64,000 nucleotides of DNA, from the NCBI GenBank assembly GCA_001899065.1, contig MKUZ01000024.1:62128-126127 (forward strand), in the 5' to 3' direction. Positions 25,998 to 39,909 of the stretch are shown in pieces (within the stretch, counting starts at the first letter, position 1; every line of letters begins with the position of its first letter). Under the pieces are notes generated by a model. The model saw nothing but the letters and a program-made list of their open reading frames with translations. It made no database searches and was not told the DNA's origin. The position numbers were made by a program, and so were the translations under genes. The stretch comes from Devosia sp. 66-22 (lineage in GTDB: Bacteria; Pseudomonadota; Alphaproteobacteria; Rhizobiales; Devosiaceae).

Positions 25998-26996
25998 TCA
26001 TTGCCCCTGCTGCACCGTTTCGCGTCCGACCCGTGCCTGCAAGTGCGGTGGATAGCGGTGGCCCTCGATCGCCGTTGTCGCGAGGACCGCGTCGATCTGC
26101 GCGCGCTCGGCGTCGCTGAGCTCCACCGCGGCCGCGCCGAAATTTTCCTCGAGCCGATGCAGCTTCGTCGTTCCCGGGATCGGCACAATCGAGGGCCGTT
26201 GCGCCAATAACCAGGCGAGCGCGATCTGCGCGAGGCTGACCCGCTTTCCTTCGGCGATCTGCCGCAGGACCGCGATCAGGCTCTGATTGGCCCTGCGGGC
26301 AGCGGTGGTGAAGCGCGGCACGATGTTGCGCACATCGTCGCTGCCGAATGTCGTCGACTCGTCGATGGTGCCGGTAAGGAAGCCCTTGCCGAGGGGGCTG
26401 AACGGCACAAAGCCGATGCCAAGCTCGTCGAGCAGCGGCAGCAAGTGCTGCTCCGGCTCGCGCCACCACATTGAGTACTCGCTCTCGATGGCGGCGAGCG
26501 GCAGCACCGCATGGGCGCGGCGGATCGTCTGCAGTCCCGGCTCGGAGAGGCCGAAATACCTCACCTTGCCGATTGCGATCAGGTCCTTGACCGTCCCCGC
26601 GACGTCCTCGATGGGCACGTTGGGATCGACGCGGTGCTGGTAGAGCAGGTCGATCACATCGGTGCGCAGGCGCTTGAGCGACGCATCCACGGATTTGCGG
26701 ATTTCGTCGGGGCGGCTGTCGGTCAGTTGCGGTTCGCCCGGCTTGGGCACGGTGAGGCCGAACTTGGTGGCGATCGCCACCTTGTCGCGCATCGGCTCGA
26801 GCGCCTCGCCGACCAGCTCTTCATTGTTGCCGTAAACCACGGCGGTGTCGAACAGCGTCACGCCCAGCTCATAGGCGCGGCGGATCACCTTGATGGCGTC
26901 GACCCTGGGCGTCTCCGGCCCGAAGGAATGGCTCAGCCCCATGCAGCCGAACCCCATGGCCGAGACTTCGAGGCCGCCGAGCTGGCGCGTCTTCAA
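25998..26996 (-). CDS. Aldo/keto reductase
   Basis: 332 residues starting from a TTG that overlaps the upstream aldolase stop (TTGA); the frame is open much further upstream but out of context. The AKR tetrad is visible: Asp and Tyr in [20 protein letters not shown], Lys in IATKFGL and His in [10 protein letters not shown]. It resembles the AKR11/13 YhdN-like, NADPH-dependent group. It ends the operon that starts with the unrecognised pair at 28984 and continues through the HpaI-type aldolase, so it probably reduces an aldehyde or ketose of that pathway. Confidence 0.9.
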
Positions 26997-27787
26997 TAGC
27001 CGCTCCCCTTGCCGGCGGCAGGCGCCGCGTCGCGGACCAGTGCGAGCCGGCCGCGTCCGGCCTCCGTCATCAGTCCGGTGTCGGAGCCGACCGTGACGAA
27101 GTCGAAGCCCATCTCCACCATGCGCTTGGCCTGCGGGCCGTTGGCGCAGTGCATACCCACATGGCGACCGGTGGCGCGGCTGCGCTCGACCACATGGCGC
27201 AGCGCCTCGACGAAGCGCGGATCGGTGCTGTCGCCATTCGCGCCCAGCCCCATCGACAGCGTCAGGTCGGAGGGGCCGACATAGACGCCGTCCAGTCCCT
27301 CGGTCGCAAGGATCGCGTCGAGATTGGAAAGGCTGAGTGGCGTCTCCACCTGCCCGAACACCACGATCTCCTTGTTGGCGTCGTCGGTGGTGTAGTTGGG
27401 CCCCTGCGACATGGCGGCCCGGGTCGGGCCGAAGCTGCGCTGGCCGATCGGGGGATAGCGGCAGGCCTCCACCAGCCGCCGCGCATCCTCGGGCGTATCG
27501 ATCATCGGGCACACCACGCCATAGGCACCGGCATCGAGCAGCTTCATGATCTGCGGCGGATCGAGCGATGTCGGCCGCGCCAGCGGCACCACCGGGGTGG
27601 TCGAGATTGCGGTCAGCATCGGCAGCGCGCCCGCATAGTCGATGGCGCCATGCTGCAGGTCCACCGTCAGCGAGTCGAAGCCGATATGCGACATCACCTC
27701 GGCAGAGTGAGAGGATGGCACGCCCAGCCAGCCATTGAGCACTGGCCGGCCGCTGGCCCAGATCTCCTTGAGGCGGTTGCCGCGCAT
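26993..27787 (-). CDS. HpcH/HpaI family class II aldolase
   Basis: 264 residues. HpaI-type landmarks: [11 protein letters not shown] (base His), [45 protein letters not shown] (metal Glu) and [14 protein letters not shown] (metal Asp). Family members cleave 2-keto-3-deoxy acids or 4-hydroxy-2-oxoacids to pyruvate plus an aldehyde; substrate not predictable here. It follows the small unknown gene by 4 bp and overlaps the aldo/keto reductase. A retro-aldol step giving an aldehyde fits the reductase here and the aldehyde dehydrogenase of the 36-40 kb operon. Confidence 0.92.
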
Positions 27788-27791
27788 CGTC

Positions 27792-37526: not shown

Positions 37527-38432
37527 ATGGCTGGCAAGAAGATCGGTTTTGTCGGGCTTGGCGCCATGGGGCGCGGCCTCGCCGGCAACCTGCTGCGCAA
37601 GGGCTTCGACGTCACCGTGTGGGACCTGGCGCCCGCGGCGGTGGATGCCCTCGTGGCAAAGGGGGCCAAGCGCGCCGCCAATGTCGCCGAGCTCGCCCGC
37701 GCCGTCGACGTCGTATGCACAATGGTGCCTGACGCACCGGACGTGAAGCGCGTGGCGCTGGGCGAGGACGGCATCATCGGCGGCGCGCATCCGGGCCTCA
37801 TCTATGTCGACTTCAGCACCGTCGATCCCACCACCAGCCGTGCCGTCGGCGCCGCGCTCGCGGAAAAGGGCATCCGCATGCTCGACAGCCCGGTTGGGCG
37901 CGGCGTGCCCGAGGCCGAGGCGGGCACCGTGACCTTCATGGTGGGCGGCGATGCCGCCACGCTCGAGGAGGTCCGGCCCATCCTCGAGGCGATGTCGTCG
38001 GAGATCATGCATATCGGCGATCTGGGCGCCGGCACCACCATCAAGCTCGTCAACAACTACCTCGCCGCCGGCATGGTGGCGATCATCGCCGAAGCGATCT
38101 CGTTCGGCATCAAGTCGGGCGTGACGCTGGAGCAGATCATCGCGCTGTCGGACAAGACCGGCACCTCCAACAAGGTGCTCAACACCGTCTTGCCGCGCAA
38201 GGTGTTCAAGGCCGACTACACGCCGGGCTTCGCGTCGCGCCTTGCCGCCAAGGACCATCGGCTGGCGATGAGCCTGGCGCGCGACCTCGACATCGACCTG
38301 CCGGTCGGCAAGGTCATCCTCGACATCCTGCAAACCTGCGAGACCGAGTTCCGCGACGAGGACTTCATGGGCTCGATCATGCGGCTCGCCGAGCGCGAAT
38401 CCGGACAGCAGCTCCGGCTGCAGGGCAACTGA
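37527..38432 (+). CDS. Beta-hydroxyacid dehydrogenase (3-hydroxyisobutyrate dehydrogenase family)
   Basis: 301 residues. The NAD(P) fold starts GFVGLGAMGRGLAGNLLRKGFDVTVWD. The catalytic Lys is K173 and Asn N177 in TIKLVNNYLAAGM. The substrate loop reads DSPVGRGVPEAEAGT with R125, where common family members have PVSGG. An arginine in a similar PVGR loop binds the sulfonate in sulfolactaldehyde reductase (YihU), so a strongly acidic substrate is possible. It follows the small module-B gene by 6 bp and probably interconverts an aldehyde and hydroxyacid with the downstream aldehyde dehydrogenase. Confidence 0.9.
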   Translation: MAGKKIGFVGLGAMGRGLAGNLLRKGFDVTVWDLAPAAVDALVAKGAKRAANVAELARAVDVVCTMVPDAPDVKRVALGEDGIIGGAHPGLIYVDFSTVDPTTSRAVGAALAEKGIRMLDSPVGRGVPEAEAGTVTFMVGGDAATLEEVRPILEAMSSEIMHIGDLGAGTTIKLVNNYLAAGMVAIIAEAISFGIKSGVTLEQIIALSDKTGTSNKVLNTVLPRKVFKADYTPGFASRLAAKDHRLAMSLARDLDIDLPVGKVILDILQTCETEFRDEDFMGSIMRLAERESGQQLRLQGN

Positions 38433-38487
38433 CCACAACGGAACTGCCGATGCCCGGCCAAGGGCATATCGGCCGATGGAGTAGATC

Positions 38488-39909
38488 ATGGAAAGCAACT
38501 GGATCGGCAACCGCTCGGTCCCCTCCGAGTCGACCGACGCGCTCGCCGTCGTCAACCCGGCCACCGAGGAAACCCTGGGCGAGATCCCGCGCGGCTCCGC
38601 CGGCGATGTCGAGCAGGCCGTCGCCGCTGCCAAGGCGGCGCAGCGCGACTGGGGTGGGCTGTCGCCCGTGGCGCGGCGCGCCGCGCTCTACGAAATCTCC
38701 AACATCCTGCTCGAGCACAAGGAAGAACTGGCCCGCCTCAATACGATCGAGATGGGCAAGCCGCTCTTTCTGTCTCGCAACGAGATCATCGGTGCGGCGA
38801 CCGCGGCGCGACAGTTCGGCGAGCTCGCGGTGCATATGCGCTCGGGCAGCCAGCAGGCGGCCTATGGCGAGCTCAACTTCCAGCAGCGCTTCCCGCGCGG
38901 CGTGGTGGGCGTCATCGTGCCGTGGAACTATCCCGTGGCGCTCGGCGTCGAGAACGTCAGCGCTGCGATCGCGGTGGGCAACACGGTGGTGTGGAAGCCG
39001 TCCGAGAAGACGCCGCTCACCTCGCGGCGCATTGCCGAACTCGCCTTCGCCAAGCTTCCGCCCGGCGTGGTCAATCTCGTGCTCGGCAATGGTCCTGGTG
39101 CCGGCCAGCCCATCGTCGACCACCCCGATGTCAGCGCCATCCTCTTCGTCGGCTCGGAGGCGACCGGCCGGCGCATCGGCGAGTCGTGCGGCCGCAGTCT
39201 CAAGAAGGCAATCCTCGAACTCGGCGGCAAGGATCCGCTGATCATCGACGAGACGGTCGATATCGAGAAGGCGGCCGCGTTCACCATCGATGCGGCCTAT
39301 TTCAACGCCGGACAGCTCTGCACCGCCACCGAGCGCATCTATGTGGCGCGCCAGATCTTCGAGCCCTTCGTCGAGGCGCTGACCCGCCAGTCCCGTGCCA
39401 TCGTCCAGGACGACGGGCTCATGGACAATGTCGGCATGGGGCCGATCGTTGACCGCATCCAGCTCGACAAGATCGTCGAGCAGGTCGATCGGTCGGTTGC
39501 CGCAGGCGCGGTGCTCCATTGCGGCGGCGCGCGGCTTGACCGCAAGGGCTGGTTCTATCCGCCCACGGTGATAACGGGCGTCACCGCCTCGCAGCCTGTC
39601 ATGGCCGACGAGACCTTCGGTCCGGTCGCGCCCTGTGTGCCCTACGACGATTTCGACGAGGCGCTCGCGCTCGCCAACGATCATCGCTACGGGCTCGCTG
39701 CGGTCCTCTGCAGCACTTCGGCGCCGCGCTCGCTCAAGTTCCTGCACGAGGTGCGCGCCGGCATGATCAAGGTCAACGCACCTCCGCGCAAGGCGCCCGG
39801 CGGTACGTCCGAGCCGGTCGGCGCGAGCGGTATCGGTGCGGGCTACGGCCAGGAACTGCTGCTGGAACTGACGCGCCAATCGTCGATCCAGTGGAAGCCT
39901 GCGATCTAG
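38488..39909 (+). CDS. NAD(P)-dependent aldehyde dehydrogenase
   Basis: 473 residues. Catalytic C278 in NAGQLCTATER and E244 in LELGGKDP; N147 in VPWNYP; cofactor segment NTVVWKPSEKTPLTS and the VGSEATGRRI loop. Typical length for succinate-semialdehyde/glyceraldehyde-type enzymes. Last gene of the module-B operon, 55 bp after the dehydrogenase. It would oxidise the aldehyde released by the HpaI-type aldolase of the module-A operon. Ends 8 bp from the convergent nirV stop, with no visible terminator. Confidence 0.93.
   Translation: MESNWIGNRSVPSESTDALAVVNPATEETLGEIPRGSAGDVEQAVAAAKAAQRDWGGLSPVARRAALYEISNILLEHKEELARLNTIEMGKPLFLSRNEIIGAATAARQFGELAVHMRSGSQQAAYGELNFQQRFPRGVVGVIVPWNYPVALGVENVSAAIAVGNTVVWKPSEKTPLTSRRIAELAFAKLPPGVVNLVLGNGPGAGQPIVDHPDVSAILFVGSEATGRRIGESCGRSLKKAILELGGKDPLIIDETVDIEKAAAFTIDAAYFNAGQLCTATERIYVARQIFEPFVEALTRQSRAIVQDDGLMDNVGMGPIVDRIQLDKIVEQVDRSVAAGAVLHCGGARLDRKGWFYPPTVITGVTASQPVMADETFGPVAPCVPYDDFDEALALANDHRYGLAAVLCSTSAPRSLKFLHEVRAGMIKVNAPPRKAPGGTSEPVGASGIGAGYGQELLLELTRQSSIQWKPAI

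Follow-up and report, generated by a model that had tools for sequence, protein, structure and literature searches.

A strictly paired DUF6772 two-gene module linked to sugar importers in Alphaproteobacteria

A 64,000-nucleotide stretch of Devosia sp. 66-22 (contig MKUZ01000024.1, positions 62,128 to 126,127; hereafter the window) carries two copies, A and B, of a two-gene module composed of a gene for a large protein of the DUF6772 family and a gene for a small partner. We observed that DUF6772 and its small partner are a real, strictly paired unit linked to CUT1-type ATP-binding cassette (ABC) sugar importers. Because the DUF6772 family is already in Pfam, the novelty rests on the pairing, on the importer rule, on an operon that unites copies A and B with a mannonate dehydratase gene (uxuA) and on the predicted folds. 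The operons that bear the module were found on alphaproteobacterial chromosomes and plasmids, and in one actinobacterium.

Strict pairing of DUF6772 and its small partner

The window contains the following module genes.

28130..28984, minus strand: DUF6772 protein of copy A, 284 aa (Pfam PF20562, E 9.3e-111, residues 8-284)
27792..28130, minus strand: small partner of copy A, 112 aa, DUF6385-like (PF19912, E 0.068, below the cut-off)
36317..37195, plus strand: DUF6772 protein of copy B, 292 aa (Pfam PF20562, E 3.1e-114, residues 10-289)
37188..37520, plus strand: small partner of copy B, 110 aa, DUF6385-like (PF19912, E 0.0021, below the cut-off)

All window genes are given as open reading frames (ORFs), and a codon-usage gene caller picked the identical set; neither an Rfam scan nor a tRNA scan gave any match in the window. 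A first-pass annotation, made from the letters of the window, had described the two pairs as paralogous as a unit and as overlapping genes. Our results agree, as the large and small genes overlap by 1 base in copy A and by 8 bases in copy B, and the two copies are 49% identical in their large proteins and 51% identical in their small ones. The same annotation had called the module unrecognised. This holds for the small protein, a weak relative of DUF6385 for which no described function was found, but not for the large one, which scored 370.1 bits (A) and 381.5 bits (B) against a curated DUF6772 cut-off of 27, with matches spanning positions 4-284 and 6-284, respectively, of the 284-position model. 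All 28 aligned large-protein members matched PF20562. The small partners reached 13.7 bits (A) and 18.5 bits (B) against a curated DUF6385 cut-off of 26.8, over about half of the 82-position model. Among 27 aligned small partners, window copies included, 25 matched PF19912 at E ≤1 (best 1.6e-6), and no protein in 61 genomes of relatives exceeded the PF19912 cut-off.

Neither protein matched a characterised family. No NCBIfam match and no informative PHROG match was obtained for either, PHROGs gave only chance-level matches on the window proteins, and profiles of DUF6772 and of the small partner matched the sequences of solved structures at chance level only. Comparison of the large and small profiles detected no similarity between them. 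A search of open-licence full-text literature returned no paper on DUF6772, DUF6385, PF20562 or PF19912; three of four annotated records name the large protein 'DUF6772 family protein' and one 'hypothetical protein'.

Loci were drawn from the family, order and phylum of the window's organism and from plasmids, and do not survey all bacteria. DUF6772 was present in 13 of 397 genomes of the order, 3 of 398 of the phylum and 13 of 136 of the family (the window's genome being counted in each), as well as in 7 of 72,556 plasmid records searched with tblastn, one of which is an 11.9-megabase actinobacterial record. No DUF6772 was detected in 50,697 phage records. The gene next downstream of DUF6772 encoded the small partner for 39 of 39 genes, and for 28 of 28 after removal of those at least 90% identical. 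The 39 genes comprise those of the window, of loci L018, L019, L044-L072 and L077, and of the G829 contig (L017, L073, L074), and leave out the duplicate contigs L020, L075 and L076; the plasmid matches H3 and H5 of DUF6772 and a broken copy on contig 12 of G768 lie outside this context set. A split copy A in L071 was counted once and a split small partner in L072 was counted as present, while genes marked by profile were added to the gene calls for DUF6772 in L045, L052 and L061 and for the small gene in L055, L059 and L072.

Conversely, the small-family profile detected, within the family, the 13 of 136 genomes that carry DUF6772 and no others (at most 34 best candidates per genome), and within the order those 13 of 397 that carry DUF6772 and, beyond them, a fragment in one further genome (at most 11 best candidates per genome). 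This fragment of 31 residues (G378, L135, about 5180-5272), the only small-partner sequence that this search found in a genome without DUF6772, lies beside ORFs that we ourselves read as integrase-like and transposase-like, and we take it to be a remnant. A weak second match of 30 residues (E 1.3e-4) in G230, a genome that has the pair, is probably due to chance. For 25 pairs, moreover, the distance matrices of the large and small proteins showed a correlation of 0.916, which none of 2000 permutations reached and to which common descent contributes.

In the tree, clade A was supported at 100/98 and clade B at 95/98, and the small protein of copy A was placed in the aligned small-partner family A2. 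The window's genome has two DUF6772 genes, both in the window. Among the matches listed, the closest named relative of copy B belongs to a Devosia ginsengisoli metagenome-assembled genome (MAG) and is 93% identical. A D. ginsengisoli-type MAG (L071, 7038-7890) has copy A broken in two, and the broken DUF6772 copy of G768, located on a small contig, is followed by a small-partner match.

Importer linkage and operon context

A CUT1 permease gene was located within eight genes of DUF6772 for 38 of 39 genes (27 of 28 after dereplication), versus 8 of 371 called genes in a control of 20 stretches taken at round coordinates in 10 genomes carrying the family; the conservation of the module as a unit with its importer thus exceeds chance. 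Annotated plasmid records agree, with the pair beside importer genes. Gene classes at these loci come from profiles of our own clusters, named by record annotation or by the Pfam match of one or two of their proteins; unlabelled operon genes were listed for loci other than duplicates and near-duplicates. Across the family, the importer is the partner that stays constant, whereas the catabolic enzymes vary by subfamily. An enzyme of the mandelate racemase/muconate lactonising (MR/MLE) type was found near 19 of 39 DUF6772 genes versus 0 of 371 control genes, and accompanies the module in the largest clade (15 of 28 dereplicated loci). DUF6772 lies directly 3' of the MR/MLE gene in eight loci, with gaps of -4 to 44 bases. 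Regulators of several types occur near the module, and no glycoside hydrolase was recognised among the operon genes. A survey of this kind had been proposed by the first-pass annotation, and the sugar-acid genes that it expected near the pair are there.

Both copies of the module stand together with the importer in a single 14-gene run in Cucumibacter (G750; L018/L075) and Mesorhizobium (G864; L019/L159). This run also holds a beta-hydroxyacid dehydrogenase, an aldehyde dehydrogenase, a short-chain dehydrogenase (SDR), a zinc dehydrogenase and a mannitol-dehydrogenase-family protein, and ends in UxuA, which exceeds its cut-off in L075 and occupies the same position in L159; a 58-residue ORF is also present in L075. 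The neighbour of UxuA, the mannitol-dehydrogenase-family protein, scored 237.1 of the 603 bits set for fructuronate reductase. Uronate isomerase (UxaC, PF02614) had no match in either genome. Of the classical hexuronate pathway (UxaC, UxuB, UxuA), UxuA alone was recognised in these operons. Uronate isomerase is encoded elsewhere in the window's genome and in G829, G768, G767 and G812, and the window's genome has UxuA-family genes on other contigs.

All five genomes of the set that have one of copies A and B carry the other, and in all five the importer, both modules, the beta-hydroxyacid dehydrogenase and the aldehyde dehydrogenase occur together. This co-occurrence and the 14-gene run support the view that A and B belong to one pathway, and point to sugar acids. 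The first-pass annotation had drawn a single pathway from genes between and behind the two copies of the window; these are listed here, along with a regulator that it does not mention.

25998..26996, minus strand: aldo/keto reductase, end of the copy A operon (PF00248, E 4.6e-74)
26993..27787, minus strand: HpcH/HpaI-type aldolase, copy A operon (PF03328, E 8.5e-34)
29409..30677, plus strand: sugar solute-binding protein (PF01547, SBP_bac_1, E 1.7e-23)
30757..31629, plus strand: CUT1-type permease 1 (PF00528, BPD_transp_1, E 8.6e-13)
31622..32497, plus strand: CUT1-type permease 2 (PF00528, BPD_transp_1, E 1.7e-16)
32518..33609, plus strand: MalK-type importer ATPase (PF00005 ABC_tran, PF17912 OB_MalK, PF08402 TOBE_2)
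33606..33935, plus strand: 109-residue protein (no Pfam, NCBIfam or PHROG match)
33917..35047, plus strand: Gfo/Idh/MocA oxidoreductase (PF22725, E 5.6e-17; PF02894, E 1.1e-10)
35044..35862, minus strand: IclR-type regulator (PF01614, E 1.5e-18; PF09339, E 2.1e-11)
37527..38432, plus strand: beta-hydroxyacid dehydrogenase, tartronate semialdehyde reductase-like (PF03446, E 2.7e-49; PF14833)
38488..39909, plus strand: aldehyde dehydrogenase (PF00171, E 3e-137)

The gene content had been read correctly: copy A runs into the HpaI-type aldolase and the aldo/keto reductase, copy B into the beta-hydroxyacid and aldehyde dehydrogenases, and the importer, the 109-residue protein and the Gfo/Idh/MocA oxidoreductase lie between them. 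The IclR-type regulator between the importer operon and copy B had been missed. What stands of the single pathway is the union of A, B and importer in one operon in two genomes; the HpaI aldolase, the aldo/keto reductase, the Gfo oxidoreductase and the 109-residue protein are not regular members of it, as they were not found in the stretches from L018/L075/L076 or L019.

The region 29409-33609 has the composition of a CUT1 importer, with a family 1 binding protein, two permeases and a MalK-type ATPase with OB and TOBE domains. The longest frame of the binding protein starts at 29364. Its nearest solved relatives, MalE3 (6dtq, E 1.9e-20) and the sulfoquinovosyl glycerol-binding SmoF (7nbz, E 3.5e-13), are maltose-type and sulfoquinovosyl-glycerol proteins of low similarity and do not name the sugar. 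Likewise, the MR/MLE enzyme of L047, tried as a clue to the substrate, is nearest to 4ggb/4hpn (E 1.4e-54) and reached no cut-off of the NCBIfam models listed. The 109-residue gene overlaps the ATPase gene and was found in three genomes, always between the ATPase and Gfo genes; the Gfo oxidoreductase has no solved relative at E 1e-10. The aldolase gene, overlapped by 4 bases by the aldo/keto reductase gene, has HpaI as its best NCBIfam model (176.9 bits, cut-off 368.8) and 7o5i, 8adq and 6r62 as nearest solved structures; the nearest to the beta-hydroxyacid dehydrogenase is 1vpd (E 4.1e-54). Against the 25 NCBIfam models listed, the aldehyde dehydrogenase stayed below every cut-off. The window operons do not amount to a galactarate/glucarate pathway, with 150.7 of 406.75 bits for GarL and 239.6 of 397 for 2-hydroxy-3-oxopropionate reductase, and no dehydratase was seen in 25998-39909, the nearest MR/MLE gene being at 9029-10177.

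Other genes adjoin these operons. An AstE/AspA-type deacylase and a pyridoxal phosphate (PLP)-dependent enzyme (24036-25978) abut the copy A operon. Deacylase relatives also occur near DUF6772 in L049, L052, L053 and L065, with M81/MlrC, RidA-like, PLP-enzyme and RpiR clusters; such neighbours hint at nitrogen-containing substrates. Directly after copy B, Pfam identified a formylglycine-generating-enzyme-like protein and a multicopper oxidase (39918-42027), presumably the start of a denitrification region. Two more CUT1-type importer clusters lie upstream (4694-16309). One includes the MR/MLE enzyme at 9029-10177, a 2-hydroxyacid dehydrogenase (8049-9032) and a 537-residue protein without Pfam match (6433-8046), and the other adjoins a DUF4127 protein (10865-12373). 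In L017 (13762-14892, minus strand), a DUF2961 protein, a LacI regulator and another binding protein with CUT1 permeases directly follow the G829 copy B operon. In L066 and L070, DUF6772 genes of a divergent clade lie opposite a LacI-type gene, a binding protein, a glucose-methanol-choline (GMC) oxidoreductase and a pyrroloquinoline quinone (PQQ)-type dehydrogenase (Pfam run for L066 only), neighbours which suggest that the substrate is oxidised before import.

Possible roles of the module

The small partner of copy B was confidently predicted to adopt a beta jelly-roll (predicted local distance difference test, pLDDT, 92.4). The large protein gave a poor model (mean pLDDT 56) with matches to concanavalin-like lectins, and probably folds as a concanavalin-A-like beta-sandwich, as do many sugar-binding proteins, glycoside hydrolases and polysaccharide lyases. 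The module is probably cytoplasmic, as the first-pass annotation had deduced from the lack of signal peptides: by a crude 12-residue hydropathy cut for a hydrophobic N-terminal segment, 0 of 40 DUF6772 and 0 of 38 small proteins passed, versus 51% of 41 solute-binding proteins.

Across 16 MR/MLE-type loci, DUF6772 was the most conserved of eight proteins, with a mean pairwise identity of 0.70 versus 0.55 for the MR/MLE enzyme, 0.55 for the small partner, 0.49 and 0.53 for the permeases, 0.41 for the binding protein, 0.45 for the FadR regulator (12 loci) and 0.43 for the SDR (11 loci). At these loci 104 columns of its alignment are invariant, including 64 with polar or aromatic residues; a wider set of 28 DUF6772 sequences retains 37 invariant residues, 15 of them charged. 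E112, E120, R152 and E211 of copy B are among the invariant residues. Since a lectin serving varied ligands would be expected to vary, this conservation seems to suit a catalytic protein better than a ligand-adapting lectin.

We favor, with a probability of about 0.35, the explanation that the module is a cytoplasmic enzyme acting early on the imported compound, most likely by cleaving a glycosidic bond. Catalysis, the substrate and complex formation are what we infer, as is the role of 'unexplained step' in the pathway that the first-pass annotation had given to the module. DUF6772 and its partner would form an obligate two-protein cytoplasmic unit in which the jelly-roll protein probably completes or stabilises the large one. 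This unit would act early on a compound brought in by the adjoining CUT1 importer and pass its product to sugar-acid enzymes that differ by subfamily: in the largest clade an MR/MLE-type enzyme, often with an SDR, and for copies A and B an enzyme set that ends in UxuA in two genomes and comprises the HpaI aldolase, the beta-hydroxyacid dehydrogenase and the aldehyde dehydrogenase in the window. The likeliest reaction would be to break a glycosidic bond, either hydrolytically or by beta-elimination, in a sugar-acid conjugate that the importer brings in, for instance a uronide. Such cleavage is favored because disaccharides and oligosaccharides are frequent cargo of CUT1 importers and because the operons include no recognised glycoside hydrolase. 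Copies A and B would be distinct subfamilies in one pathway, presumably acting on two different bonds or isomers.

Several observations weigh against this explanation. In Nonomuraea (L048), a LacI regulator comes after the pair, and no importer occurs within eight genes. Glycoside-hydrolase-type genes flank some operons, with GH8 in L068 and DUF2961, a GH172-type family, near copy B in L017 (flanks scanned in part). Residues 1-82 of the large protein have a pLDDT under 50, which leaves its fold provisional and its active site not placeable, and the high relative conservation of DUF6772 partly stems from the fact that non-orthologous copies can take the place of its neighbours. UxuA without uronate isomerase in G750 and G864 suits an isomerase-like role as well as cleavage, and the order permease, permease, DUF6772 would suit a transport accessory too. 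Of the proteins compared below, YesU is a reported glycan-binding protein, and DUF1080 shows no sequence link to DUF6772.

The module could instead perform another step on a free sugar acid, such as isomerisation (perhaps substituting for uronate isomerase), dehydration or the opening of a lactone, a possibility that we rate only slightly below cleavage. It gains weight because UxuA is present without UxaC in the A/B operon of G750 and G864, next to the mannitol-dehydrogenase-family protein. It is also consistent with the GarL-like and GarR-like enzymes of the window operons, which lack a dehydratase, and with the position of DUF6772 immediately after the MR/MLE gene in eight loci. However, the largest clade has its own MR/MLE enzyme, so that the module is no simple dehydratase replacement, lactonase-type genes (SMP-30, amidohydrolase 2) are separately present in a few loci, and the genomes without uronate isomerase are only two, G864 being of unstated completeness.

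It is unlikely that the module is a non-catalytic cytoplasmic lectin that, by binding the imported saccharide, would buffer or sense it or pass it on to enzymes. The concanavalin-like lectin matches of the poor model, the glycan binding reported for YesU and the several types of regulator nearby would fit such a role, but DUF6772 is more conserved than the MR/MLE enzyme and the binding protein, and has 15 charged invariant residues. Less likely again is the pathway of the first-pass annotation, in which import would be followed by Gfo oxidation, HpaI retro-aldol cleavage and then oxidation or reduction of the aldehyde, the module supplying the step that is missing. All the families that it names are present in the window, and its importer, modules and two dehydrogenases recur in five genomes; yet the four inconstant genes are missing from the stretches of two of these five, where the SDR, the zinc dehydrogenase, the mannitol-dehydrogenase-family protein and UxuA stand instead. 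Finally, a role as importer accessory, attached on the cytoplasmic face to the permeases or to the MalK-type ATPase, appears the least likely despite the constancy of the CUT1 permease and the commonest gene order (permease 1, permease 2, DUF6772, small partner, with short gaps), as the module follows the MR/MLE gene in one operon with the importer divergent in L046, L054-L058 and L061, copy B lies outside the importer operon in the window and L017, and the permeases are less conserved than DUF6772.

Assigning a function to DUF6772 would fill the main unassigned slot in these importer-linked operons and help to say what these bacteria eat. If the module cleaves glycosides, it would be a new carbohydrate-active enzyme family that needs a second protein; if it isomerises uronates, it would open a new route into a textbook pathway. 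We tentatively propose a new class of two-subunit cytoplasmic enzymes that would take the committed first step of CUT1-linked sugar-acid pathways in Alphaproteobacteria and beyond, either cleaving uronides or removing the need for uronate isomerase; in the lineage of the window, two diverged copies would act one after the other. The strict pairing makes the question directly testable, with one importer, one two-protein unit and few enzymes.

Comparison with known systems

Among fold matches whose activity has been described, YesU of Bacillus subtilis (DUF1961, PDB 1oq1) is the closest to the large protein. To our knowledge, YesU has no jelly-roll partner. DUF6772 differs from the YesU family in sequence, as PF09224 was unmatched by the 28 members at E ≤1, and DUF1961 was set aside as a relative, having been found in none of 249 genomes of the window's order. 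One report describes YesU as a concanavalin-like protein that binds fucosylated glycans and is not an enzyme (PMC6120924).

The 3-keto-disaccharide hydrolases (DUF1080, PF06439) also have a concanavalin-like fold. No Pfam match to PF06439 was found among the 28 DUF6772 members, and DUF1080 was rejected as a relative at an hhalign probability of 0.1% (five matches from relatives). These hydrolases are described as sugar-cleaving proteins of sugar-utilisation loci, and the Caulobacter enzyme as having a putative signal peptide (PMC9007349), whereas DUF6772 has no N-terminal signal by the hydropathy test.

The predicted jelly-roll of the small partner resembles the Bacillus prophage proteins XepA and YomS (6i56, 6i5o), which share 5-6% sequence identity with it and stand in a phage context. 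Because jelly-rolls are widespread, the common fold shows no common function. A phage origin of the module is unsupported despite these phage-like matches, since no DUF6772 was found in the phage records searched. Among known pathways, the hexuronate branch through fructuronate reductase (UxuB) and mannonate dehydratase (UxuA) offers a likeness, as the A/B operon of two genomes ends in UxuA beside a mannitol-dehydrogenase-family protein. It differs in that G750 and G864 have no uronate isomerase and in that the neighbour of UxuA falls under the fructuronate reductase cut-off.

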